Assembly: GCA_013388835.1 (NCBI GenBank)
Contig: JACAEL010000052.1
Coordinates: forward strand, 1 to 41,104
Source of the DNA: Candidatus Thorarchaeota archaeon
Lineage (GTDB): Archaea; Asgardarchaeota; Thorarchaeia; Thorarchaeales; Thorarchaeaceae
Reading direction: 5' to 3'
DNA length: 41,104 bases
The translations under genes were made by a program, and so were the position numbers. Under the pieces are notes generated by a model, which did no database searches, was not told the DNA's origin, and saw only the letters and a list, made by a program, of their open reading frames with translations. This document shows, in pieces, positions 974-41,104 of the stretch; positions within the stretch are counted from its first letter, which is position 1, and the number at the start of each line of letters is the position of its first letter.

Positions 974-3900
974 ATGCATGGAAGGCTGCTCCTGACTCTG
1001 ATACTACTTACTCTCATCCTCCCGCTCAGTTCCATGACAGTCTGGCCGGCTGAATCAACCAGCCAGACCACTGCATCCCTGTGCGTGATTGACCCCCGTC
1101 TTGAGATGTCACTGTCCGAGTTCGATGAGAGTTCGCGAAAGCCGACAAGTGCCATTCTGCAGTTCGCTGCGGAGCTCTCTCCTGCTCAGATTGCTCGGGC
1201 AGAGCGTAACGGAATCTGTTTTGTCAGGAGGGCGGGCGAAGTGGTCCACGTGGGCAGGGTCTACTCTGTGAGGCTAATGGACAAGTCCGCTTTGGATACA
1301 GCCGGGTCGCTTGGTCTCGTGCATGCATCCTCGGGTGACAAGCAGTTCTTTCCTTCACTTCTATCCTCCGTCCCTGCTACTGAAGCTCCAACAGTGTGGT
1401 CATCTCTCAAGGTTTCGGGAGTCCCCCTTCGTGGGACTGGCAGTCGAGTGGCTGTCATTGACACAGGTGCAGCGTGGCTTCATCCGGCATTTTGGAGAGT
1501 TACGACGGAAGCCGTCGATGTGATTCAGTCAGGTGGGCGGTTCTATGCGGACCTGAATGGGAATGCGGTGACAGACACAGGAGAGGGTCCAATCCGACAC
1601 ATCGATGTGAGTGACTACGGAGTCATCAACACGCTCAACGAGTACCTGTTTATCGATACAGGGGACGATGGCCAGTTCGACTATGCCGAGGGCGATAGAT
1701 GGCTCGCAGGTGTGGACTCTGACTCGAATGGCATAATCACACTTCCCGGTGAAGACGTGGTTGTCCTCGGCGAGCCGAAGATAGCAGCTCTGTATGATCA
1801 AATGACGAGCAGTGTCTACCTTCGTGGCACAAACCTGACTTCGCTCGCTCTCTCAGTTGGCGACACGAAAGGTCATGGTACGCATGTGGCATCCACTGTG
1901 GCAGGAGGCCAGATTGGCTACACATCAATGCTGGGTATGGCACCCGACGCGGACCTGATCATCATCCGGAGTTCACTGACTTCCGCTGAGATACTGGATG
2001 CCATCAGTTTTGCAGTGTCACAGGGTGCAGATGTGATCAACATGTCCTTCTCGAGCTTCATCGGTTTCCTTGACGGCACAGACATTGAGGACATTGCCAT
2101 CAATGAGGCCTTTCGAACATGGGGTGTCCTGTCAACACTGGCTGCCGGGAACCTGGGTGGGACTTCGAAGCACGCAAGGTTCTCCGTGCCTCAGGAATCT
2201 GAGGAGTCTGCGGTCTTGTCCGTGTCAAGCCCTCCGAGCGGCTCATTCCTGAACATCCTGTGGAATAGCGAGGACTCTGACGAGGCCATCCGACTGGTGT
2301 CGCCATCGGATGAGATTGTCGACCTTGGGAGTTTCGCTTCGCATCATGGTGTGGCCTTTGAAGTCAATACTGACGACCTTAAGGCGTACGTGTTTCCAAG
2401 CACCAGCGTCCGGGGCACGAACCGACTCGTAGTTCAGGTGGTCACAGGGTCTCATCTTTGGAAGTCTGGATCTTGGGACGTTGTTGTTTCAAACCCGTCG
2501 GGAAAGCCCGTAGTGGTCGACATGTATGCATGGGACACCTACTGGTCGGGCACTAACATGAGATTCAGTACAAAAGTAGACAATGAGCACACGGTGAGCT
2601 CGCCGGCCACTGCCGATCTGGGCATTGCGGTGGGCTCATGTGACGATGGCGGCTCGTCCATATCTTCCTCCTCTGGTAGGGGTCCGAGGATTGACGGAGT
2701 CTTCAAACCCACTGTGGCTGCTCCCGGTCAAGGGATTACGGCCGCAAATACCAGCCTGTCCAAACTGTGGCAAAGTCTAAGCGGTACGAGTATGGCATCC
2801 CCTCATGTTGCAGGGCTTCTGGCACTGCTTGGTCAGGCCTTGAACGGCTCTCCCGGCTGGCGGGGGCTTAGTGCTCTCTTCCAAGGTGCAGGACGTAACG
2901 GAGTCCACTACTCCCCTCCTGTGTCCGACTGGGGCTACGGTGCCATCAACGCACTGGGATCGGCAAGACTCCTCGTCCCGCTTGCGACTCACGGGGGCAT
3001 ATCTGACTGGGCGGGAGTCGACACAGTACATCAGGACCCGTTGGACCCATCCCTACCAAGCAGTCTCGATATCCGAGCCATCCGCTTCTATCCAACCGTC
3101 AGCAGTCTGAGCGTCGCAGTGTCATTGACTGACATCGCGGACTTCTCGGGTACGAATGAGCTGCGTATAGACTGGGACACCGACTCAAACTCAACCACGG
3201 GCCAGAGTGGGGTTGACCTTCGTCTGACCCTGACAGGTGGTGTTATGGAAGTGCTACGATGGTCTGGGTCTGCATTCGAACCCGCCCCTCTTGGGTCTGG
3301 CTTCTGGAATAGCTCTACAAGTGTCTTCGTCTGGGTCGAGAAGACTGCGGACATGTTCGGTAACCTGTCCGTCAGCACTCGCGCTCCGGGCTACTCGCCT
3401 GCGGACACTACGCCTGTCCTCGAGGTGGAGGACGTATGGAGACCTCTCATAGGTGTCGTGACAGTCACTCCATTGACAGAGGCCATCTTTGTCAGTGCGG
3501 AGGTGGTTGACACCGACAGCAGCAGTCAGAGTCTGTCCATCGGTTGGTCCGTGGTGGATGGGGCGATGGCAGTCCTTGAGTCAGGGATGACAACTGGTTC
3601 TCGTAACAGCAGTTTCAGTGTAACAAGGCGTGTGTCCACTCACGGCCAGAGAAGTGTTCTCTTCAATGTGACCGACGGTGATGACTACCTGTACATCCCG
3701 CCGGTGTTTCTTCTTGCGACCTCGACGGCTGTCAGAATAACTGATGCGAGTCTCGACTCTGATACCATCGTGGTTGGTCCGTTTGTCAGCACTTCTATAA
3801 CTGGTCGTGTGGTGGTCGAGGGGTATGAGTGGGTCAGTTCAGTCACAGTTGCCATTCGTTCCAACAACTCCTATTGGCTCAACTTCACCCTTACAGGGAC

Positions 3901-4138
3901 TGAGGGAGTCTATCCGTTCAAGATTAGCAGCGCTGGGTTCGCTGAAGGTCAATACACAGTCTTTGCAGTGGTCGTCACAGCCGAGGGCGAGAGCATAGTG
4001 GAGGCGTTCGGTATTCTGACTGTTGTCCGCGACAACACGGTGCTCTTCTTGATTGGACTGGGCGTGGTCGGAGTCATAGTTATATTCTCGGTCCGCACCC
4101 GTCTGGCTTCCAAGACCACTTCGGAGGCTATCAAGTGA
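974..4138 (+). CDS. Membrane-anchored subtilisin-family (S8) protease with calcium-loop insert
   Basis: This encodes a 1054-residue exported serine endopeptidase. Residues 1-25 form a signal peptide. The catalytic triad is Asp163 (AVIDTGA), His301 (GHGTHVA) and Ser606 (GTSMASP), with the oxyanion Asn393 in AAGN. The Asp-His spacing is long, and residues 193-261 contain acidic loops. The best, DSDSNGIITLPGED at 248-261, resembles an EF-hand or dockerin calcium loop. About 200 residues separate Asn393 from Ser606, so an extra beta-rich domain is inserted inside the protease fold. Residues from about 680 to 1015 are beta-sandwich-like and rich in Ser, Thr and Val. One membrane helix (about 1021-1042) and a short basic tail anchor the C-terminus. 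AAGGA lies eight bases before the ATG. The stop overlaps the start of the next gene as GTGA, so the two are probably co-translated. Family assignment is secure; substrate is unknown. Confidence 0.93.
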   Translation: MHGRLLLTLILLTLILPLSSMTVWPAESTSQTTASLCVIDPRLEMSLSEFDESSRKPTSAILQFAAELSPAQIARAERNGICFVRRAGEVVHVGRVYSVRLMDKSALDTAGSLGLVHASSGDKQFFPSLLSSVPATEAPTVWSSLKVSGVPLRGTGSRVAVIDTGAAWLHPAFWRVTTEAVDVIQSGGRFYADLNGNAVTDTGEGPIRHIDVSDYGVINTLNEYLFIDTGDDGQFDYAEGDRWLAGVDSDSNGIITLPGEDVVVLGEPKIAALYDQMTSSVYLRGTNLTSLALSVGDTKGHGTHVASTVAGGQIGYTSMLGMAPDADLIIIRSSLTSAEILDAISFAVSQGADVINMSFSSFIGFLDGTDIEDIAINEAFRTWGVLSTLAAGNLGGTSKHARFSVPQESEESAVLSVSSPPSGSFLNILWNSEDSDEAIRLVSPSDEIVDLGSFASHHGVAFEVNTDDLKAYVFPSTSVRGTNRLVVQVVTGSHLWKSGSWDVVVSNPSGKPVVVDMYAWDTYWSGTNMRFSTKVDNEHTVSSPATADLGIAVGSCDDGGSSISSSSGRGPRIDGVFKPTVAAPGQGITAANTSLSKLWQSLSGTSMASPHVAGLLALLGQALNGSPGWRGLSALFQGAGRNGVHYSPPVSDWGYGAINALGSARLLVPLATHGGISDWAGVDTVHQDPLDPSLPSSLDIRAIRFYPTVSSLSVAVSLTDIADFSGTNELRIDWDTDSNSTTGQSGVDLRLTLTGGVMEVLRWSGSAFEPAPLGSGFWNSSTSVFVWVEKTADMFGNLSVSTRAPGYSPADTTPVLEVEDVWRPLIGVVTVTPLTEAIFVSAEVVDTDSSSQSLSIGWSVVDGAMAVLESGMTTGSRNSSFSVTRRVSTHGQRSVLFNVTDGDDYLYIPPVFLLATSTAVRITDASLDSDTIVVGPFVSTSITGRVVVEGYEWVSSVTVAIRSNNSYWLNFTLTGTEGVYPFKISSAGFAEGQYTVFAVVVTAEGESIVEAFGILTVVRDNTVLFLIGLGVVGVIVIFSVRTRLASKTTSEAIK

Positions 4139-5415
4139 GAGTTCTCGTTGTTGGATACGGCCCCGGCGGTGTCTCAGCTGCATCTGCGGCGCGGACCTTC
4201 GCACCCGATGCTGAAGTGGTGGTCATCACAGCAGAGAGCACCCCGGCTCACAGACGACCTGGTGCGTCTCTGGGGCTTGAGTTTCCCTACACACGCGACC
4301 TGGACATCCGCGACTGGTCCTTCGAAGGTCTCCGCAAGAGAAGAATCGAGGTCTGGCGTGAGAGTCTAGTTGTCGATGGTGACCTCGATGCAAAGACCGT
4401 CGAGGTGATTCACCGAGGGACCAAACGAACTGAGAGATATGACCGACTCATCCTCGCGATGGGCGGAACGCCCGTTGTGCCAAGCATTCCGGGCACTGAT
4501 CTTGAGGGCGTCTATACGATGCAGAACCTGTCGGATGCTTCAAGGGCAGGAAGACACTTGGCGGGCTGCAAGAGTGTCTTCATAGTGGGTGCCGGATTCA
4601 GTGCTCTTGAGGTTGCAGAGCGACTCAGGTCCATGAAGAAGAAGGTGCACCTCATGGTTCGCTCGCGGCTCATGCGACGACAGCTCGAACCTGAGATGAG
4701 CGAGGAACTCCTCTCACGTCTGCCTGATGATATTGATGTGCATATGGGTCGCGAGCCGACTAGAATCAATGGTTCTGTGCGTGTGGAGAGTCTGGAAGCC
4801 GGAGGCGAGACATGTCCGGCAGAGTCCGTCCTGTTGATGACCGGAGTGCGTCCCAACACGAATCTAGCGAAGAGGCTTGGTCTGGCGATTGGAGGACTTG
4901 GTGGCATCTCTGTAAACAGCAGAATGGAGACGTCTCATCCCGACGTGTATGCGGTCGGAGACTGTGTGGAGATGATTGATGCTGTCACAGGGAAGCCCTC
5001 CCTGATGCCGGTTGGCAGTGTTGCTGCTCGTGCAGGTCGCCAAGCGGGTGTTCTGGCAGTGGGCGGCAATCGCATCTACCCGGACACATCGCTTCGATTC
5101 CAATATGACCGGCTATTCGGGTGCGACATCTGCTGTGTGGGCCTCTCCACTGACTTTGCCTCTATGATGGGAATGGAGACTCGGGTCCAATTCCTCGAGG
5201 ACAGCTCGGAGTACTCCAAGATTGCACTGGTGACAGACTCTCAGGAGCGGCTTGTGGGTGGACAGGTCCTCTCCGCTAGGATGGGTGCGCGACTCGGCTT
5301 CCAGATACTTCAACGCGTTGAGGCGCACATGGTGCTTGCCGAAAACCCCATCCTCAGGTCACGTCATGAACAGATGCACGCCCTGTTGGAACGCACCTTG
5401 GGTCCTATTCGATAG
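4135..5415 (+). CDS. FAD/NAD(P)-dependent pyridine nucleotide-disulfide oxidoreductase, no redox cysteine at the CoADR position
   Basis: This is a 426-residue two-dinucleotide-fold flavoprotein of the NADH oxidase/CoA-disulfide reductase/rhodocoxin-reductase superfamily. The N-terminal FAD motif is GYGPGG near residue 8, the second nucleotide-binding motif is VGAGFSALEVAE near residue 150, and YAVGDC near residue 275 contacts FAD. CoA-disulfide reductases and NADH oxidases carry a redox Cys near residue 43. Here the equivalent stretch is HRRPGASLGL, with no Cys, so a thiol mechanism at that site is unlikely. The start is GTG at 4135, sharing GTGA with the stop of the upstream protease gene. 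Its 3' end overlaps the opposing protease gene by 11 bases. It has no signal peptide and should be cytoplasmic. Pairing with an exported protease is unusual, and the electron acceptor is unknown. Confidence 0.88.
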   Translation: MRVLVVGYGPGGVSAASAARTFAPDAEVVVITAESTPAHRRPGASLGLEFPYTRDLDIRDWSFEGLRKRRIEVWRESLVVDGDLDAKTVEVIHRGTKRTERYDRLILAMGGTPVVPSIPGTDLEGVYTMQNLSDASRAGRHLAGCKSVFIVGAGFSALEVAERLRSMKKKVHLMVRSRLMRRQLEPEMSEELLSRLPDDIDVHMGREPTRINGSVRVESLEAGGETCPAESVLLMTGVRPNTNLAKRLGLAIGGLGGISVNSRMETSHPDVYAVGDCVEMIDAVTGKPSLMPVGSVAARAGRQAGVLAVGGNRIYPDTSLRFQYDRLFGCDICCVGLSTDFASMMGMETRVQFLEDSSEYSKIALVTDSQERLVGGQVLSARMGARLGFQILQRVEAHMVLAENPILRSRHEQMHALLERTLGPIR

Positions 5416-8308
5416 ACGGTGGCGTCCCGTCATAGACGGGTACTTCCCATTCCGCCTCGGGTGTGCGTCTTCTTGTGCTGCCCTTTGCTCGCGAGCCGAA
5501 CTTCAGTAGCACCACATACCCAAGGCCTACAGCAACAACTGTTAGCAGCGCTAAGGTCACCATAGCAGTCAGCTCCGGGTCTACGGGAACGGCAGTGACG
5601 AGGACTGTCTTCTTGTACGTCCTGTTGTGTCCGGCATCGTCTGAGGCAGTGACCGTGACCTCGTAGAAGCCGCTGACAGGCAGTATGTACTCTCCTGAGA
5701 ACTTGTATCCAAGTGACTCTGTCGTTGTGCCCTTGATGACGGTCCCATTGGGAGCTCGCACTGAGACCTCGACTTGTGCTAGGTCATTGTCGAAGACATA
5801 GGCAGTGACTCGGGCAAGTTCTCCGGATCCGCCCCTAGTGATGCTCACGTTGAATATCTTCGGGGAGTCGGACTTCATGTAGGCAGCAAGATTCCTCAGA
5901 AGCATCAGATTGTCCGCGCCTGCGAGGACTGAGTCGAAGACCGTGCTATCATACACCATCGAGCCGTCCGATATGACAACCACTCTTCCAAGCCCTGACT
6001 GTGCTACGGCGACCAGTGCTCTCTGTGCCGAAGAGTCAATCCAGAAGAGGCCTTTCGTTCCGGGGACCGACTCGTTCACAGACAGAGTACTACCCGCGAA
6101 GACGTACAGGTTGTTGACTCCCTGCGTCAATGGATGGGCAACTACAGAGCCGCCATAGTCGGTGCCGTAGGTCACTCCGAACTCGTCACCCACAGTGCCG
6201 CCAATACCGTACTCCTGACACTGAATGCCATAAGGTGCAAGTATTCTGTTGTAGTACTCAATTCCGAAGCTGGCCTGCTGGGCGATGTTGTCGTAGAACT
6301 CGGAGAAAATCAGTAGGGTACCGCCATCATCTACGAACTGGTGCAATGCGTCTATCTCGGACTGATAGTACTCGGTCTCAGTGTCCATTACCATGAACAC
6401 ATCTGCCATAGCCAATGTTTCCGTCGATATCAGCTTTGAGGACGAGGGGTACCCGAAGTCGCTCATCACGATGCCATGCTCACGGAGCGAGTCATCAAAG
6501 TACTTGTAGTAGGATGCCTCATCCACGTCGTCGTAGCTATGGTGGGTCATGTCGACCAACAGTCTTCCTCCAAAGGTCGTGATCACAAAGCGGAGGTTGA
6601 TGCTGCAAAGGGTGTCGTTGCCTGCCACAACACGCAGTTGACCCAAGTATCTGCCGACTGCGGTAAGTGGCAATTCTTCGGGGATACTCAGATTGATGTC
6701 GAAGTGGCTGTATCCCTTCTGAACAGTCAACTGGGAAACAGATGAGGTCACGTACGCGCTGGCATTTCCGGTCATGTTGATTGTGGCTGTACCCCTGTGC
6801 ACTGTTGAGATGATGGTGACCTTCTGTTCCGGTCTGCTGTCTCCAACTATGAACACACTCTGGCCCCATGGGAGGGTTGGGTAGACGGTCGGTGCAGCAA
6901 TGGTTATCCTACCATGTGTGCTCATCAAAGCCTCATCCGTTCTTGAGACATTGGCTATTCCGAAACCCTGAGCCATATAGTCTGAGTCCAGCGGAGTGGC
7001 TCCGGCCATGAGACTGGCCTTCAGATCAAGGGGGCTAAGTGTACTGTTCTTATCAAGCAGGAGGGCTATCAGGCCTGCTACCAGCGGGGTGGCCGCTGAG
7101 GTGCCGGACCACCTCGTGTAAAGGGAACCATATTGCGACTCGTTGTAGGTTGGAAACTCGTACGTGTTTGCCATGTCCCATCTTCCTGAGACCACCTGAT
7201 AGCCGGGGGCCAGCAGGTCTGGCTTGGCGTAGATTCCCAGTGGCGCAGTCTGGGTTCTTGTGACTGGTCCTCGACTGCTGAACGATGCGACCCCTGTGGA
7301 ACCTTCAGATGCACCCGCTGTTATGGCCTCTTCTAGGATGCCCGGGGCGTTGATTGTTTCTGCTGCGGGTCCGCTGTTGCCAGCCGCTACAACGACGCTC
7401 ACTCCTGCATCCACAGCTGCCTTTGCGGTCTGAATGGAAGGATCGGTGTAACTGGAATCGACCCAATCGCCTCCCAAGCTCAGACTGATGACATCTACAC
7501 CCTGCGACACTGCGAATTCGATACCTTGAGCGACAACCGAGTCGTCCGCGGAACCTGAAGAGTCGAGCACCTTGATGACCAAGACCTTAGCGCCCGGTGC
7601 CATGCCCGTGTAGACTCCTCCAAGACCGCTACCCGACCCGACCACAAGCCATGTACAGGCAGTCCCATGACCATTGTCATCGTAGGCATTGACTCCATCA
7701 CTAGGGTCCATGTCGTCTCTGTTCTTCCTGACAAAGTCCTTGAAACCTACAAGCCTCCCACTTAGATCTGGGTGATCGCCGTATGCGCCGCTGTCAACCA
7801 CTGCAACCGTCACGCCAGAGCCGTTGTAACCCTGTGCCCACATGGCCTCGACTCCAAGGATCGCATCTGGATGGACATATCCGGGGTGTCCATTGATGAG
7901 GAGTTCATCAGGACTCCCAATCACTGGAGCGACGGACCTCTTGACGTCGCGGTCCACGCGGACAACTCCATTGATGGTTGTCAGGGCGCGTACCGACTGC
8001 GCATCTGCGTAGAGGGACACGACCGGGATGATTTGGAACACATGTCTTATCTCAATGTCATCGACACCGGAGCGCTCAACTGCGTGTCGCATTGTGTCTT
8101 GGTCGGTGCCCGGTGCGAACTGTAGAATCACGGGTATTCGCTCACTGCTGTCTGCAATCAATGCTGCAAGTTCGCTCGATATGACGGACTCGGCGGTTGT
8201 TCCTGTGCTGTGCAGCAACGAGACTGGAGGCACACAGATTGGCAGCACTAGCAATGACACCACAAGAAGCAGGTAGATTCGTTGAGTAGCAATGCGGTGA
8301 CGCGTCAT
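5405..8308 (-). CDS. Membrane-anchored subtilisin-family protease with site-1-protease-like C-terminal module
   Basis: This 967-residue exported S8 protease begins with a signal peptide (about 1-35). An I9-type inhibitor propeptide follows at about 58-122. The catalytic domain has Asp172 (VVDSGA), His214 (NGHGTA), oxyanion Asn311 (AAGNSGP) and Ser404 (SGTSAATP). After a beta domain (about 465-578), residues 579-812 form an alpha/beta module like a class-I glutamine-amidotransferase/ThuA fold. Its motifs GGRLLVD, MVMDTETEYY, FVDDGGTLLIFSEFY and GLGRVVVISDG match in order those I remember after the catalytic domain of human MBTPS1. An Ig-like domain (813-905), one membrane helix (about 912-936) and a 30-residue basic-then-acidic tail follow. 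GGGAGGA precedes the ATG. The gene converges on the oxidoreductase gene with an 11-base overlap. The protease call is secure; the site-1 relation is a recollected similarity. Confidence 0.94.
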   Translation of the reverse strand: MTRHRIATQRIYLLLVVSLLVLPICVPPVSLLHSTGTTAESVISSELAALIADSSERIPVILQFAPGTDQDTMRHAVERSGVDDIEIRHVFQIIPVVSLYADAQSVRALTTINGVVRVDRDVKRSVAPVIGSPDELLINGHPGYVHPDAILGVEAMWAQGYNGSGVTVAVVDSGAYGDHPDLSGRLVGFKDFVRKNRDDMDPSDGVNAYDDNGHGTACTWLVVGSGSGLGGVYTGMAPGAKVLVIKVLDSSGSADDSVVAQGIEFAVSQGVDVISLSLGGDWVDSSYTDPSIQTAKAAVDAGVSVVVAAGNSGPAAETINAPGILEEAITAGASEGSTGVASFSSRGPVTRTQTAPLGIYAKPDLLAPGYQVVSGRWDMANTYEFPTYNESQYGSLYTRWSGTSAATPLVAGLIALLLDKNSTLSPLDLKASLMAGATPLDSDYMAQGFGIANVSRTDEALMSTHGRITIAAPTVYPTLPWGQSVFIVGDSRPEQKVTIISTVHRGTATINMTGNASAYVTSSVSQLTVQKGYSHFDINLSIPEELPLTAVGRYLGQLRVVAGNDTLCSINLRFVITTFGGRLLVDMTHHSYDDVDEASYYKYFDDSLREHGIVMSDFGYPSSSKLISTETLAMADVFMVMDTETEYYQSEIDALHQFVDDGGTLLIFSEFYDNIAQQASFGIEYYNRILAPYGIQCQEYGIGGTVGDEFGVTYGTDYGGSVVAHPLTQGVNNLYVFAGSTLSVNESVPGTKGLFWIDSSAQRALVAVAQSGLGRVVVISDGSMVYDSTVFDSVLAGADNLMLLRNLAAYMKSDSPKIFNVSITRGGSGELARVTAYVFDNDLAQVEVSVRAPNGTVIKGTTTESLGYKFSGEYILPVSGFYEVTVTASDDAGHNRTYKKTVLVTAVPVDPELTAMVTLALLTVVAVGLGYVVLLKFGSRAKGSTRRRTPEAEWEVPVYDGTPPSIE

Positions 8309-10384: not shown

Positions 10385-13300
10385 ATGAACTATAAGCGAA
10401 GCACAGCTGTTCTGCTCTTCATGGTGGCACTGACCCTGTCAGTGTTCTTTTCACCAGTTGGCCCTGTGGCCAAAGCAGAGGTTGCTGACTCGCCCATTCT
10501 CTCTCCTGAGGTCGTCGAGCAAGTGAACCAGTTCAATGAGCTCGTCTCGCAGCCTGGTTACACTGCCAAGGTCGACCCCCTCATTGCAGAGTGGAAGAAT
10601 GGTGCTGTCAGCGACAAGGTCGTAACCAAACCCGACGGCTCTGTGAGCGCATTGCTTGTCTGTACCCCATGGGTAGATGACGCAGCAATTCGCAACCTAG
10701 TCACTGTGGAATGGGCAGCCGACCTCATACTATTCAAGACCATGCAGGTGACCCTGCCATCGTCTGACGTGATTGACGCTCTTGCCAGCATACCCGGCGT
10801 TGGCAGCATCGATGCGGACATCTACAGAGATGGCTTCGAGAGAAGCACCGAAGATTTCGCAAAGGCATTCTCTGATCCTAGTATGCCAGAGGTAGGCACT
10901 GACATGTACCACATCAAGGAGGTTGTCGGTGCGACAACGAGCCCCGCATCGAGCTACGATGGCTCTGGTATCTACGTCGGTCACATCGACACTGGTGCCG
11001 ACTTCGGTCATCCAGATCTGGCTGGAGCGTACGGATGGGCATATGACCCCACAGGGTTTGGGCTCACCCCGACATTCTATCATGCCAACTCAACTCCCGT
11101 CGCAAACCTCACGGAGTGGTTCGAGAATGGCTACCTGCTCACATACGAGGACGAAGGTGACACCTACCTTGCTCTCTCAGCCTCTGTGGTTGTGAACAAG
11201 TCCTCTGGTGCTCAGCTGTTCCCATGGCAGAACCAATCATGGGCCAAGACTATCAGCTACAGCTGGGACCCAATCGTGAACAATGAGAATAGCCCACGGT
11301 ATCTCATCGGTGATGGTGACTACACCACCCCGTACCGCGACAGAGTCGGTTTCATCTGGCTGTACGCATACTACTGGGGCATCGAGGGCGTAGACAACCT
11401 GTTCTACAACTATCTCTGGAATGACTGGAAGCTGCCAGATCCATCCACAGTCAACGGAGACTACCGAGTTGGATGGGTCCATCAGTACCACCGAGCGACA
11501 TATGGTGTTTCTCCATACGCGAGAATATTCGCTCCATCGCTCGTGTACAACTCCTCAAGCACCAAACAGTGGAATCTTGTCATCAACTGGGATGACACAA
11601 TGGGTTGGAACTACTTCTGGACTGGTGGCTTCTACTACGAGTCACTCGACTTCACAAACATCATAGACGCATACCATGTGATTGAGCAGTTCGACTGGGA
11701 CTTCACTGACGAATCTGCTTTCAATCTGGCCAATCCGATTGTCAACCACGACTACAGCGGTGACAGCATCGCCGACTTCAGCCTGGGTGCTCTCGCAACC
11801 TGCTACGATGCTGGTGGATGGTTCGACGATGACCCGTACTTCGTAGGCTTCAGGGCAGATGGTGATGCCTTCGCTCTGTACTACGATGCTGGCAACCACG
11901 GCACTGCAACTGCTGCTCATGTTGCGGGCCAGGGTGTTGTCGACTACGAGAATGTCGACACCGGTGCGGTGTTCCAGCTTGAGGGCATCGCCCCAGGTGC
12001 AGACCTGTACTCAGCCAGGTTCATCACAAGTGGTGGCTACTATGGTGCTCAACTCTGGACCTGCGGCTTTGACATGAATGAGACCTCAGGTTACTGGTAC
12101 TACACAGGCAACCACCTCAGTGACATCTCCACGAACTCATGGGGCTGGGTCACTTCGTCTGCAAGTGTGCTAAACTATCTCAGCCTGACGTGGGATCTCC
12201 TGTCCGTACCGGGAGTACTGAGTGCTACCTATCCGGGAGTTCTCCACGTAGTGTCGGCTGGTAACGAAGGCTCTGGTTTCCAGACCATAGGGCCTCCTGG
12301 TTCTGCTGCCGCCGTGTTGACTGTTGGTGCATCCACCACGAGCCACTGGCTCGAATACCTCTACGGTCCAACACAGCCTTATGAAGGAATAGCATCCTTC
12401 TCCAGCAAGGGTCCAGACGTGATTGGCTACTCCAAGCCCGACGTTCTCGCCCCGGGTCTGGCAGGCTATTCGGCTCTGCCTTGGTACAGCCAGTACATGG
12501 GGCCTATCTGGGGCGCTGTGGATGACGAGTACTGGGTGTTCTCCGGTACAAGCCAGTCCGCCCCTGTTGCAGCCGGTGTTGCCGCCCTGCTCTACGAGGC
12601 TATCGCCGTCAACGTGGGTGGTTGGCTCTCTCCGTTCGAAGCGAAGATGATTCTCCAACAGACCGCTGATGACTTGGGCTACGACCCAGCCACACAGGGT
12701 TTCGGTAGAATCAACGCGGCGAACGCCATAGATTTCGTAGAGAATGGAGGATGGGTTTCGTACAGTGTCGGCTCTTGGAACAACTACGCCGCGATAATCC
12801 AGCTTTGCTGGGAAGAGTGGGGTCACCTTTCGAAGAATGTCTTCGGCACCTACGTGAACGAGAGCGTTGTTTCCTTCCCGACTGACTTCTGGGAGGGCTC
12901 GCTATACTTTGGTAACGTCTATCCGGGTACAACCACAACCATTCACCAGAGAATCTACAGTGACTACTTCACTACACTTGACACTGGAGGTGTAGGTACT
13001 TGGACAGTCAGCCAGTACGAGTGGCGGAAGGCTGAAGTGTACCGCTTCTCAGGCAAGACCTTCTGGTACAATGATACTGGCGTCTACCACGCGACAGCCG
13101 AAGAACGAAAGGCCTATGGCTGGTTCAACCTGCGTGATGCACTCGGACCTACCGCGTATGATGCCGCGATGAGCACGTACACCTACATGACCATCGGTGT
13201 GTCATTCAAGCAGTCCGAAGTCGCAAACAATTACCCGTGGATGTTCTTGTACGACTGGGAGGACAACAACGTCACTGACTTGATGCCCAACCTGTGGAAT

Positions 13301-15253
13301 GGAACCGACGGTGACGAGCTGCACAGGCTCACTAGCGCCGCGAACCCGAGCAACACCAACATGATGTCTTGGGCAACGACGGACACGGACTTGGCAGCGG
13401 CTCTTGCTGGCAACATGACCATGGTCATCCATGACCCAATCCATGACACCAACCCATCTCACACGGGTCACTGGTTCAACGCTACCGTGATCTTCTGGGA
13501 GGCGGCGTCTGCTGGTGCCATATCGGTTGCCGACGGCGGAGCTGCAGGCTCTCTGAACATCTCACTCAGTGCTCCAGTTGGTGATGAGTACGGCATCCAT
13601 CAAGGTTACCTTGTCCTTCAGAAGGGCATTGGTGAGCTGAGACTGCCCTACAGCTATATGCTGACAGTCGATATGACTGCAGACAGTGATGGTGACAAGT
13701 ACTCGATTGTGAGTGGTGTCGGCGCGAACCTGAACCCATACGACGCTCCAGTGTACGGCTGTATGGACAGCGACCCTGATACGTGGGACTTCAGGAGCTA
13801 CGCAGTGCATGTCTCAAACACGACTCACGCCTACTACCTAGGCGTGCGTGTGGAGTTCAGTGACCCCGGCAACAACATGTATGTGTCAGTCTACGACGAG
13901 GTCGGCAACGAGCTGGCCTACGGTTCAGCAAAGACCGCCACTAGCACTGCAGTCATTGCAGAACTGTCGCGTGGAGCTGGCATCTACTACATCCATGTCC
14001 ACCCGATCGCACTGAACGGAACCGAGTTCCTACCTGTGAACTACACGCTGGAAGCCACATGGTATAGCGCTCTGACAACCCAGCCTCTCGCCACGACCTA
14101 CACGGCAAACGACATAACGACTCCGATACCCGTCGCCGGTAGCGTCGACACTTTGACTGGCGACCATGTTGTACTGAGTGCCCACTACCCGGACTTCAAC
14201 CTGCCCAACATGCCGGAGTACGAGGTTGTGAGTATGGAGATGCAGTTCCTCTCAGGTGTGTACTACGTACATACTCAACCTCTCATCGTGCCTAGTGGTT
14301 CGTACGATCCATTCTCAGGTCCAATCGACACCTCTCAGTTCAGCTGGGAGTTCGTTGATGGTATCAAGGCCGGTGACAACGTCAGAATCTCCGTCACGTT
14401 CACGAACGGTGACTGTGACATAATGGTCTGGTGGGCTGACACCGACAACTCGACTTGGGCGTACAGCAACAACCTTGTCGGTTCACAGATGGCCACCGGT
14501 GCGAAACCAGAAGTAGGTTCGTTCATTGCATCCCGATCTGGCAAGATTGCCATCGGTATCTTTGACTACGACCAGCAGACTGGTACATCCACGACCACTG
14601 TTGACACCCGAGCTGGCATCACAATCACTAGGAACGACAACACTGTGACCTACGACACGTACCAGTTCCTGAAGAATGGTACATTCTCGGTCCAGATCAA
14701 GGCATACACTCAGACCAACATCGAGTTCACGACCAACTACGCAGCCCTGACGTTCGAGAACTTCTTCTCGCCCGTCATGGGTTCCGTGAACGTCACTTCG
14801 CTTGGTTCCAACCGGTTCAACATCACTTGGGCCGCGTCTGACCGCAACGCTGGCGATGACCTCTACTACGAGATCTACGTTTCAGCAGACCAAGGTCAGG
14901 CCGGAACATACCAGCTGTTAGCCGTCAACCAGACGAAGACGTTCTATGTCTGGGACTCGACCGGTTTCACACAGAAGACCAACAGCTACAGAGTCAAGAT
15001 CGTTGTCTTTGACAACGACCCTGACGAAGGTGCTGCCGTCCCAGGTGAATACTGGATGGGTCTGAGCGATGAAGCTGAGTCTGGGCTCTTCACAGCCGGA
15101 AGTGTAGTGATTACAACCACTACCACCACCACAACTACTACTACAACGAGCGTGCCGCCTCCGCCAATCGACCCGCTGTTGGTTGGTCTGCTAGGTGGTG
15201 TTGGAGTCGGTGTTGTGGTCCTCCTAATCCTCTTCCTAGTGAAGAAGAAGTAA
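10385..15253 (+). CDS. Giant membrane-anchored subtilisin-family protease (1622 aa)
   Basis: This is an exported serine protease with a signal peptide at 1-32. The triad is Asp202 (HIDTGAD), His505 (GNHGTATAAH) and Ser723 (SGTSQSAP), with oxyanion Asn627 (SAGNEG). The Asp-His distance is about 300 residues, against about 30-40 in classical subtilisins. That insert is rich in Trp and Tyr and has several Asp-rich turns. About 850 residues of beta-rich modules follow the catalytic domain; one near 1240-1340 looks like a pre-peptidase C-terminal domain. Twelve consecutive Thr codons, a Pro-rich PPPPID, a Gly/Val-rich membrane helix (about 1598-1619) and a terminal KKK form a stalk and anchor typical of archaeal surface proteins. 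GAGGAGAAG lies about eight bases before the ATG. A hairpin terminator follows. It may be a structural surface protein as well as a protease. Confidence 0.94.
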   Translation: MNYKRSTAVLLFMVALTLSVFFSPVGPVAKAEVADSPILSPEVVEQVNQFNELVSQPGYTAKVDPLIAEWKNGAVSDKVVTKPDGSVSALLVCTPWVDDAAIRNLVTVEWAADLILFKTMQVTLPSSDVIDALASIPGVGSIDADIYRDGFERSTEDFAKAFSDPSMPEVGTDMYHIKEVVGATTSPASSYDGSGIYVGHIDTGADFGHPDLAGAYGWAYDPTGFGLTPTFYHANSTPVANLTEWFENGYLLTYEDEGDTYLALSASVVVNKSSGAQLFPWQNQSWAKTISYSWDPIVNNENSPRYLIGDGDYTTPYRDRVGFIWLYAYYWGIEGVDNLFYNYLWNDWKLPDPSTVNGDYRVGWVHQYHRATYGVSPYARIFAPSLVYNSSSTKQWNLVINWDDTMGWNYFWTGGFYYESLDFTNIIDAYHVIEQFDWDFTDESAFNLANPIVNHDYSGDSIADFSLGALATCYDAGGWFDDDPYFVGFRADGDAFALYYDAGNHGTATAAHVAGQGVVDYENVDTGAVFQLEGIAPGADLYSARFITSGGYYGAQLWTCGFDMNETSGYWYYTGNHLSDISTNSWGWVTSSASVLNYLSLTWDLLSVPGVLSATYPGVLHVVSAGNEGSGFQTIGPPGSAAAVLTVGASTTSHWLEYLYGPTQPYEGIASFSSKGPDVIGYSKPDVLAPGLAGYSALPWYSQYMGPIWGAVDDEYWVFSGTSQSAPVAAGVAALLYEAIAVNVGGWLSPFEAKMILQQTADDLGYDPATQGFGRINAANAIDFVENGGWVSYSVGSWNNYAAIIQLCWEEWGHLSKNVFGTYVNESVVSFPTDFWEGSLYFGNVYPGTTTTIHQRIYSDYFTTLDTGGVGTWTVSQYEWRKAEVYRFSGKTFWYNDTGVYHATAEERKAYGWFNLRDALGPTAYDAAMSTYTYMTIGVSFKQSEVANNYPWMFLYDWEDNNVTDLMPNLWNGTDGDELHRLTSAANPSNTNMMSWATTDTDLAAALAGNMTMVIHDPIHDTNPSHTGHWFNATVIFWEAASAGAISVADGGAAGSLNISLSAPVGDEYGIHQGYLVLQKGIGELRLPYSYMLTVDMTADSDGDKYSIVSGVGANLNPYDAPVYGCMDSDPDTWDFRSYAVHVSNTTHAYYLGVRVEFSDPGNNMYVSVYDEVGNELAYGSAKTATSTAVIAELSRGAGIYYIHVHPIALNGTEFLPVNYTLEATWYSALTTQPLATTYTANDITTPIPVAGSVDTLTGDHVVLSAHYPDFNLPNMPEYEVVSMEMQFLSGVYYVHTQPLIVPSGSYDPFSGPIDTSQFSWEFVDGIKAGDNVRISVTFTNGDCDIMVWWADTDNSTWAYSNNLVGSQMATGAKPEVGSFIASRSGKIAIGIFDYDQQTGTSTTTVDTRAGITITRNDNTVTYDTYQFLKNGTFSVQIKAYTQTNIEFTTNYAALTFENFFSPVMGSVNVTSLGSNRFNITWAASDRNAGDDLYYEIYVSADQGQAGTYQLLAVNQTKTFYVWDSTGFTQKTNSYRVKIVVFDNDPDEGAAVPGEYWMGLSDEAESGLFTAGSVVITTTTTTTTTTTTSVPPPPIDPLLVGLLGGVGVGVVVLLILFLVKKK
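15113..15148 (+). repeat. Twelve consecutive Thr codons (glycosylatable stalk)
   Basis: The ACN codons at 15113-15148 are mixed (ACA, ACC, ACT, ACG), so the tract is a protein-level repeat and not a pure nucleotide microsatellite. It lies just before the Pro-rich linker and the membrane helix of the giant protease. Thr-rich tracts in this position of archaeal surface proteins are commonly O-glycosylated spacers. Confidence 0.8.
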
Positions 15254-38673: not shown

Positions 38674-38755
38674 AACGGAGAGCCAACATGCTGGCCTCCA
38701 GTTGTGTGTGAGTCATACTGCATAACGGACCGACTTCATCAAAGGAGTGAGTCAA

Positions 38756-40723
38756 TTGGGTCAAGGTAGCACTGTTCCCCGTGTGTCAGACAGTGGGGAC
38801 ATCAAAGAAGGTACAATCGCGAAGTTCATGCGAAAGAGGACTCAGCTAGTTGGTTTCGAAACTGGACTCAACAAGCACACGCAGTACGCAATAGAATTCT
38901 TGGACAACTCGATTGACGCACTAGAAAGCTACTTCTGGAAGTCCAAGAAGCGTCCACGCTTGACCGAGCAGCTAGACCCAGAGATAATCAAGGAGATTCG
39001 TGAGAAGCTGGCGCCGGATCTGACTGACTCCATAGCCTATGGAAAGCAGATTGAGAAAGACATGAAGGACGGCAAGCCGATAGCCCTTCCTCCCACCCCA
39101 AAGGAGAACCTCGAAGAGCGTCTCAGGAGGTTCAGGAAGTTTCTCACGCCGTTCAGAACACTCCTGAAGAAGGACGAACCCTTTGTTGCCATTCAGCTGA
39201 CAGAAGTCCTGATGCCCGACCTCATTCCCATTGATGACCCGGAAGGGACCAAGGTCTATGAGTTCACATGCTTGGACAATGGTGTTGGCATGGTCCCAAA
39301 TGACCTTGAGAAGTATGGGATCTATCTGGCATCTAGCAAGTCCGAGAAGCTGAGACAGACGAGAGGAAGTCAAGGTTTCGGTGCACCGTCTGCTTTCAGT
39401 GATGCCCAGAACACTACTGGCAAACCGATATTCGCTGTTACCAAGCGCTTCAATTCTGAACTCGCCGTAGTAGCGGACTTCTACACGACCACTGCTAACA
39501 CGAAGGAATACGTTGCAGGTCCTCTTGAGATGGACCTGCCAATCGAGCATGGGACCTATGTACGGCTCAACTACCTAAACATACAATATCGACGCGGTTA
39601 TGCAGACATCTACTGCGAGATGGCGTCGCTTCTCAACTCGCATGTCACGATAATATTCATAGATCCCTACGGAACTGTGAACATCTATCCACGAAGGGTA
39701 GATGTCTTTCCTGAAGAACCCAAGTACGCACAGCCACACCCCGCAAGCATCCGGATTGGTGAGTTTCAGGACCTCTTGCGCGAGACGCCAGAACGAACAC
39801 TTGGGGGTTTCCTTACACATGCATTCTGCAGACTCAGTCCCAACAAGGCTGAAGCAATCATTAACGCGGCAAATGCCGAGCTGGGTCGTCGGCATCTTGA
39901 GAAGCTGAGCCTGCGAACGCCCACTGACACTCTGGACAAGACCGAAGTGGAACTCCTTTATCGTGCATTTGCAAACGAGGAGTACATAGCTCCTCCCACC
40001 GACACAGTGGTCCCGGTTGGGGAAGAGGTCTTCGAGAAGACTATAGCAGAGGCCTACAAGCCAGAGTTCGTCGCAGCTGTCACTAGGAAGCCAACATCGG
40101 GAAAGGGGCTGTCCTTTGCCGTGGAGGTCTGCATTGCATACGGTGGGGAGATTAAGCCTGCCACATCTGCACCCATGGTCCTCTGGCGGTTCGTGAACAG
40201 GGTGCCCAAGCTACGGGACAACAGTGACTGTGCCACATGGAAGGCCTGTACCGCTGTGAACTGGAAGAACTACAAGCTCCAGGTGTTTGACAATGGTATT
40301 CCACGAGGCCCCGTCATGGTATTCATTCATGTCTGTGGTGCATATGTTCATGTGATGTTCAAGGGACAGAGCAAGCAGGCGCTGGCAGAAGATGAGGTGT
40401 TGCTCCGAGAGATCAAGCTGGCCCTTGAAGATGCAGGACGGAAGTTCAGGAGGTTCATTACCCGTCACGAGACCGCCAGGAGAAAGGCAAAGCGAGCTGG
40501 TATCTTGGCCATGTACGCAGACCAGTTCGCTCAGAGCCTCGTGACCATCGCAAACACAGGAAGAGGCAGGAGTCTCTTTGACGCAGAGACCATTGCATGC
40601 AAGATTCGTGACTCCATATCTGGCTATGAGAGCGCCGACGAGGCCGAAGAGGGGGAGGTTGAAGACGACGATCTTACCGATGACGAGTTAGAAGCCGGCA
40701 TCCCAGATGTGGGCGGTGAATAG
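38756..40723 (+). CDS. top6B: DNA topoisomerase VI subunit B, with ATPase-domain insertion
   Basis: This 655-residue GHKL ATPase subunit of the archaeal type IIB topoisomerase relaxes and decatenates DNA together with subunit A. The N-box is IEFLDNSIDALE (Glu47, Asn51), the second box is CLDNGVGM (Asp174) and the lid motif is TRGSQGFGAPSAFSDAQ (about 202-218). The transducer domain has the WKACTAVNWKNYKL segment with its switch-lysine region, followed by a C-terminal helix bundle and an acidic tail. From Asn51 to Asp174 is 123 residues, against 34 in the Sulfolobus enzyme as I recall it, so about 90 extra, mostly charged and helical, residues are inserted. TTG 38756 was chosen because AGGAG ends eight bases upstream; GTG 38747 would sit right on it. 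The next gene starts three bases after the stop. Confidence 0.93.
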   Translation: MGQGSTVPRVSDSGDIKEGTIAKFMRKRTQLVGFETGLNKHTQYAIEFLDNSIDALESYFWKSKKRPRLTEQLDPEIIKEIREKLAPDLTDSIAYGKQIEKDMKDGKPIALPPTPKENLEERLRRFRKFLTPFRTLLKKDEPFVAIQLTEVLMPDLIPIDDPEGTKVYEFTCLDNGVGMVPNDLEKYGIYLASSKSEKLRQTRGSQGFGAPSAFSDAQNTTGKPIFAVTKRFNSELAVVADFYTTTANTKEYVAGPLEMDLPIEHGTYVRLNYLNIQYRRGYADIYCEMASLLNSHVTIIFIDPYGTVNIYPRRVDVFPEEPKYAQPHPASIRIGEFQDLLRETPERTLGGFLTHAFCRLSPNKAEAIINAANAELGRRHLEKLSLRTPTDTLDKTEVELLYRAFANEEYIAPPTDTVVPVGEEVFEKTIAEAYKPEFVAAVTRKPTSGKGLSFAVEVCIAYGGEIKPATSAPMVLWRFVNRVPKLRDNSDCATWKACTAVNWKNYKLQVFDNGIPRGPVMVFIHVCGAYVHVMFKGQSKQALAEDEVLLREIKLALEDAGRKFRRFITRHETARRKAKRAGILAMYADQFAQSLVTIANTGRGRSLFDAETIACKIRDSISGYESADEAEEGEVEDDDLTDDELEAGIPDVGGE

Positions 40724-40725
40724 AT

Positions 40726-41104
40726 ATGAGTCCTAGAGAGAGGAAGACAGACGGCAAGACCATTCAGATGACCCTGGGTGTAGACTCTGGTCCGGGCAGC
40801 AAGGAATCAAGAGGAGGGTCTCCTGACAAGGCTGTGAAGATGCAGTCGAAGCCACCGAAAGGAAAGCCGGCAAAGTCTGCTGCCAGAGAATCGGCACCTA
40901 AGAAGGGAGCTGTTGCTGTCGCTGAAGGCGCCGCGCCCAAGGCAGTTCAGTCCGCAGGAGTAAAGAAGCCTGCGAAGGACGCCTCAAAGAAGCCTCCCGC
41001 CAAATCCACACAGAAGAAACCCACAGAGTCGAAGTCTGCAGAGAAGCCTACAAAGAAGCCCGCAGAGAAGCCTTCAGGGAAGAAGCCTGCAAAGAAGCCC
41101 GCAG
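40726..41104 (+). CDS. Start of a Lys/Pro/Ala-rich protein, probably topoisomerase VI subunit A; runs off the window
   Basis: The frame opens at ATG 40726, with GGTGA six bases upstream, and stays open to the right edge (126 codons). It starts MSPRERKTDGKTIQMTLGVD. From about residue 40 it becomes a low-complexity, highly basic tail with repeated KKPA, EKP and KKP units, similar in composition to the tail of eukaryotic histone H1. In archaea top6A normally follows top6B directly, so this is probably a long disordered N-terminal extension of subunit A, whose catalytic part would lie beyond the window. It could instead be a separate H1-like DNA-binding protein. No folded domain is visible in the available part. 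Confidence 0.72.
   Translation, partial: MSPRERKTDGKTIQMTLGVDSGPGSKESRGGSPDKAVKMQSKPPKGKPAKSAARESAPKKGAVAVAEGAAPKAVQSAGVKKPAKDASKKPPAKSTQKKPTESKSAEKPTKKPAEKPSGKKPAKKPA

Follow-up and report, generated by a model that had tools for sequence, protein, structure and literature searches.

The topoisomerase VI locus

The window, meaning the whole stretch of DNA that was analysed, is the entire contig C52 of a Thorarchaeota genome, 41104 bases long. It carries a complete gene for subunit B of topoisomerase VI (Top6B), followed by the beginning of a gene for subunit A (Top6A). The main features of the locus are the following.

38747..40723, + strand: Top6B, insert type; open frame with a GTG start, 658 aa
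38867..38941, + strand: N-box helix, residues 41-65, with E50, D53, N54 and the clade-invariant W64 (AlphaFold2, AF2, model)
39275..39292, + strand: G1 box, D177-N-G-V-G-M182 (sequence, invariant columns)
39755..39973, + strand: helices 337-409, consistent with the H2TH domain (AF2 model, alignment with PDB Top6B)
39992..40492, + strand: transducer domain PF09239, with WKNY (506-509) and Lys543 (Pfam, alignment)
40726..41104, + strand: start of Top6A, with a Lys-rich N-terminus, cut by the contig end; the remainder is likely at the start of contig C16

The window Top6B is 69-79% identical to Thorarchaeota proteins. Pfam finds PF09239 at residues 416-582, with 147.5 bits against a cut-off of 24, and HATPase_c_3, barely above its cut-off; the top PDB matches, by sequence as well as by fold, are solved Top6B chains throughout. 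The GHKL residues E50, N54, D177, G179 and G181 are invariant across 42 sequences, as is the transducer Lys, K543; both WKNY and this switch Lys align with known subunits. The presence of an H2TH domain is indicated by helices 337-409 of the model, and by an alignment running along full-length PDB Top6B chains. In many insert-type Thorarchaeota Top6B (L006, L007, L026 and others) the G1 box reads D-T-G, not D-N-G. The Top6B of S. shibatae and M. mazei (PDB 1mu5, 2zbk, 2q2e, 9o0g) share with the window the GHKL-H2TH-transducer order, the N and G1 boxes, the WKxY motif, the transducer Lys and the pairing with a Top6A gene; identity is about 24% (Foldseek), and the two differ in the spacing between the boxes, 32-34 residues against 123.

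Two related enzymes were considered and ruled out. Topo VIII is a B-A fusion, while B and A genes are separate in the window and in its relatives; it is also, for the most part, a homodimer with a short extension at the C-terminus (PMC8185306). Topo VIB-like proteins (MTOPVIB/TOPOVIBL) have no H2TH domain, and their N-box is degenerate or missing (PMC11302465): the window Top6B has an intact N-box and H2TH-like helices.

Top6A directly follows Top6B in most relatives whose locus extends that far. The likely partner in this genome, joined from C52 and C16, has retained the YY tyrosine motif as well as the toprim Glu and DSD; the assembly break between the two contigs falls at its KKPA repeats. 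Since ATP-binding, transducer and DNA-cleavage motifs are kept, the topoisomerase VI of the window should be active, and from these motifs we infer that the insert-type enzyme is a working topoisomerase. The Thorarchaeota insert-type Top6A (L137:1-2034, L053:7962-10190) is extended at its N-terminus by a Lys-rich segment containing two HhH domains.

The same genome encodes a second Top6B (contig C55, L002), placed after RIO-like and KH genes and adjoining its own Top6A. A DNA gyrase B C-terminal domain was not found in this genome, in a search run with positive controls.

Extra length between the N-box and the G1 box

Counted from the GTG start, 123 residues separate N54 of the N-box from D177 of the G1 box. 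The corresponding spacing is 34 in S. shibatae, 32 in M. mazei, 31 in Natronorubrum, and 32 in the second Top6B of the same genome. The excess over the references, about 89-91 residues, agrees with the about 90 extra residues that an earlier note on this DNA had placed between the first two ATPase boxes; its residue numbers, 51 and 174, are shifted by three with respect to the GTG start, with no effect on the distance. The span then proposed, 38933-39250, corresponds to residues 63-168 and does contain the extra length, not as the single insert assumed but as two sites joined together: a helical insert at residues 66-143 and a lengthened hairpin turn at residues 155-168.

38942..39175, + strand: insert proper, from the N-box helix to the next beta strand, residues 66-143 (spacing, alignment, AF2)
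38978..39067, + strand: Thorarchaeota-specific helices 78-91 and 95-107 (AF2); in other Asgards, the length-variable middle of the insert
39110..39169, + strand: core helix of the insert, residues 122-141, with the near-invariant P135 (AF2, pLDDT 92-95)
39176..39181, + strand: invariant Glu144-Pro145, directly before beta strand 146-154 (alignment, AF2)
39209..39250, + strand: lengthened beta-hairpin turn, residues 155-168, the second and smaller site of extra length

Every one of the 20 distinct Thorarchaeota proteins measurable by motif search has a spacing of exactly 123, and 17 aligned Thorarchaeota sequences show zero gaps relative to the window across residues 40-184. Because of this constant spacing and gapless alignment, the insert is neither a chance event nor an annotation artefact.

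A monomer model of the window Top6B was generated by AlphaFold2 from 42 aligned relatives (mean pLDDT 79, pTM 0.77). The predicted order is N-box helix 41-65, helices 78-91, 95-107 and 122-141, and strands 146-154 and 169-177, so that the insert is indeed helical, as had been read from the letters. Within it, ten-residue blocks have pLDDT values of 71-95, most of them 82-95; the ATP-lid residues 193-202 and 207-214 fall below 50. A second model, for a protein of another Asgard family with a spacing of 96 (L069, genome G038), features the N-box helix (36-59), one insert helix (88-102, pLDDT about 91) and both strands. Helix 88-102 is the counterpart of the core helix 122-141, and helices 78-91 and 95-107 have none: the insert is thus composed of a conserved core helix and a lineage-specific middle.

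Conservation follows the same layout. W64, E144 and P145 are invariant in 42 of 42 sequences, and P135 nearly so; overall, the insert is 51% identical within Thorarchaeota, against 80-86% for its surroundings, and 16% identical across other Asgards, against 54-59%.

In the GHKL fold, the nucleotide pocket lies next to where the N-box helix ends. Since the insert adjoins this helix, topology places it beside the pocket, which is the ground on which its suggested proximity to the nucleotide holds.

Distribution and history of insert-type Top6B

The Asgard insert-bearing group is here given the working label type II Top6B, defined by an FMRKRTQLVGF-type N-terminal motif, a W after the N-box helix, an EP before the strand and a spacing of at least 95; the window Top6B has all of these. 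Besides Thorarchaeota, the type is present in ten other Asgard families, with spacings ranging over 95-307: 95-122 in f3, f6 and f9-f12, 102-104 in f25, 121-307 in f2 and f26, 95 and 164 in f27. It was not seen in Heimdall-like and some other families (f4, f5, f7, f13-f22, f24), where Top6B spacing is 32-78 in the members read; among non-Heimdall Asgard lineages, most have it. The Loki and Heimdall labels attached to coded families are inferred from genome counts and literature.

Some Loki-like insert-type Top6B (L060-L062, L077-L099) are encoded by frames of about 800-1250 aa. Their matches to the window protein are interrupted between residues ~380-410 and 425-440, and the C-termini of L060 and L062 run past that of the window Top6B; these match breaks and longer C-termini indicate further extra sequence.

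A wider search covered 392 genomes, about 200 of them archaea outside the Asgard phylum. Among the matches listed, non-Asgard ones are at most about 35% identical to the window Top6B and begin at residue 145 or later, with the exception of G213. Of 46 non-Asgard Top6B sequences drawn from the searched genomes, 45 have a spacing of 30-45. The exception is again G213 (L151), a genome of 0.6 Mb in which an independent hairpin-turn extension of about 80 residues brings an otherwise canonical Top6B to a spacing of 115; f13 (L115) features another independent extension. A viral source of insert-type Top6B is without support: neither a scan of viral contigs based on the type II alignment nor a tblastn search against phage records returned a match.

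The earlier note had allowed that the insert could be general and already described. It is general across the 11 sampled Asgard families, it was not seen at this site in the other archaea sampled, and no description of insert or clade was found in the open-access literature, subscription journals and preprints being mostly outside that search; the nearest papers treat C-terminal Top6B extensions together with gyrase (PMC9348778) and the helical region of the eukaryotic subunit (PMC11302465). The insert is real and defines a clade, and the topoisomerase VI that bears it is a new variant, in which the insert has a putative function. It is a clear marker separating two B lineages in Asgard genomes, and the solved archaeal topoisomerase VI structures (S. 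shibatae, M. mazei) are without this module or the divergent B.

Inteins have been reported in some archaeal Top6 sequences (PMC9348778), and the extra length might derive from a mini-intein, from what is left of one, or from another mobile sequence. Such an origin is extremely improbable: every type II sequence has the insert at the same single site, its length is co-linear and graded, a helix with conserved residues would not persist in a remnant, and no Pfam intein domain is found in the window protein at E 0.001.

Two B trees were built with the insert columns removed. In both, insert-bearing B form one clade (support 100/100) on a long stem (2.7 or 1.76 changes per site). The larger tree places this clade outside another, likewise supported at 100/100, that unites TACK B with all remaining Asgard B, those of Heimdall-like families among them. 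In the smaller set, of 56 rows, constraining insert-bearing and Heimdall-like B to group lowers the log-likelihood by 25.6 units (AU p 0.011). The A trees group the partner subunits with Heimdall-like A (100/100 or 100/99), on a stem of just 0.07-0.12. The partner A is an ordinary Asgard A, and the A and B trees disagree. Either a foreign lineage replaced B, or B evolved very fast and its long branch misplaces it; a firm choice between the two cannot be made. A possible history, put forward with some doubt, is that most non-Heimdall Asgards have a chimeric topoisomerase VI with a vertically inherited A, in which a foreign, deep-lineage B replaced the original one and gained a helical module regulating the gate, canonical copies persisting in several lineages.

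Eukaryotes have their closest known relatives in the Asgard archaea, and the Spo11 machinery of meiosis descends from topoisomerase VI: the conflict between A and B trees matters where topoisomerase VI serves as a marker for eukaryote origins.

Several other subunits were noted along the way. The non-Asgard genome G288 (L192, f79) has a Top6A sister to the Asgard A clade (100/100) and a very divergent Top6B, with an unusual N-box, GVQNAADA; its grouping with the insert clade in a quick tree is not trusted, both branches being long. In some families, Heimdall-like Top6B is located at the N-terminus of very long frames, from 1118 to about 4300 aa (L100, L101, L102, L103, L105, L108, L119; families f15, f17-f20, f22); in L100, L105 and L108, Pfam finds HhH-type domains (RAD51D_N, HHH_5) behind the transducer.

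Possible roles of the insert

One reading treats the extra length as a surface insertion that is tolerated without serving a specific role, the product of drift in a fast-evolving subunit. The long stem (1.76-2.7 changes per site), the spread of spacings from 95 to 307 and the independent extensions in f13 and G213 fit with it. The Thorarchaeota length, however, is fixed at 123 with zero gaps, the fold is confidently predicted, and near-invariant W, P and EP residues are kept across 11 families, all of which makes drift unlikely.

A contact with DNA, which the earlier note had suggested, either with the T-segment in the cavity or with the G-segment arms, is less likely still. The insert had been described as highly charged: this is correct for Thorarchaeota, where its net charge is +4 to +7, while the sign differs among other Asgard families, being positive in f9 (+11/+6) and negative in f12 and f6 (-6/-7) and in most Loki-like rows (-13 to -26). 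Top6B is known to contact DNA through the KGRR loop, through WKxY with the stalk, and through H2TH (PMC5922973). The type II clade has a shorter KGRR loop, which aligns as only partly basic, and R188/R189 of the M. mazei loop have no aligned counterparts in the window Top6B; another contact could compensate for this loss, and the positive charges in Thorarchaeota and f9 would suit it. WKxY, a known DNA-binding element (PMC5922973), is kept on the other hand, and a net charge spanning +11 to -26 makes a general DNA-binding role unlikely. That general reading was set aside on charge; direct binding of DNA by the insert is improbable.

A role in modulating the ATP gate, or in docking a partner, would fit better than general DNA binding, with docking nearly as likely as gate tuning. 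A docking surface might receive a regulator, a chromatin protein, or the Lys-rich, HhH-containing N-terminal extension of Thorarchaeota Top6A. An insert whose middle is lineage-specific and whose core is kept would be compatible with such a surface; eukaryotic topoisomerase VI requires the accessory proteins RHL1 and BIN4 (PMC11302465), and in the gyrases of E. coli and M. tuberculosis the inserts of both subunits touch each other (PMC7956263). The insert is, however, also present in relatives with a short Top6A, and no candidate partner gene was identified, leaving docking a rather doubtful explanation. The HhH-bearing Top6A was rejected as a general reason for the insert, since other insert-bearing families have a short Top6A, of about 400 aa. 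Gyrase content was similarly discarded, Loki lineages having gyrase (PMC9348778) and insert alike.

The tentatively preferred reading, drawn by analogy, is that the window Top6B is the ATPase subunit of an Asgard-specific topoisomerase VI whose insert tunes the ATP gate. It is favoured because the insert extends from the end of the N-box helix, by the nucleotide pocket; by topology it lies between helix 41-65 and strand 146-154, and is confidently modelled there. The single helix kept in L069, the invariant W64, E144 and P145 with the near-invariant P135, and the 100/100 support for one clade also speak for it. The core helix would brace the end of the N-box helix beside the pocket, and, together with the lineage-specific extension, might tune gate closing, gate opening and ATP turnover, as inserts do in gyrase. 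The faster evolution of the insert speaks against gate tuning, as it also fits a tolerated loop. As a concrete element that can be deleted, the insert offers a way of probing how the ATP gate of topoisomerase VI is tuned.

Species-specific inserts of DNA gyrase, one of them in the GyrB GHKL domain, modulate its activity (PMC7956263). Like the Asgard insert, those known, including that of Corynebacteriales GyrB (PDB 6gav; PMC7956263), are lineage-specific, and the M. tuberculosis one is located in the GHKL domain; gyrase is a type IIA enzyme and the M. tuberculosis insert is short, and homology to the Asgard insert is not expected.

Eukaryotic TOP6B also has an extra alpha-helical region adjoining GHKL, for which Allen and Maxwell (2024, PMC11302465) proposed a contact with the GHKL domain opposite, an idea similar to the gate reading given here; extra helical sequence near GHKL is what it shares with the window Top6B. 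An Arabidopsis TOP6B sequence that does not come from a database provides a lead only: its spacing is 100, with the extra length in the hairpin turn instead of the helix-strand junction, and it is most similar to insert-free Asgard Top6B, L114 ranking first. The Met by the GXG motif is at 197 in this sequence, against the published 198 (PMC4112631). Homology to the eukaryotic region was not adopted, on the position of the extra length and on these insert-free best matches; the two are likely to be independent.

A third topoisomerase VI pair occurs in Thorarchaeota (L120, L123, L125, L127, L129) and in f5 (L110). Its Top6A is very divergent (stem 3.56), with D-x-S replacing the toprim D-x-D and the tyrosine motif kept; the spacing in its Top6B is 37-44. 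Elsewhere in the window, three large subtilase-family (Peptidase_S8) proteins are encoded within 15 kb, at 974-4138 (+), 5405-8308 (-) and 10385-15253 (+).
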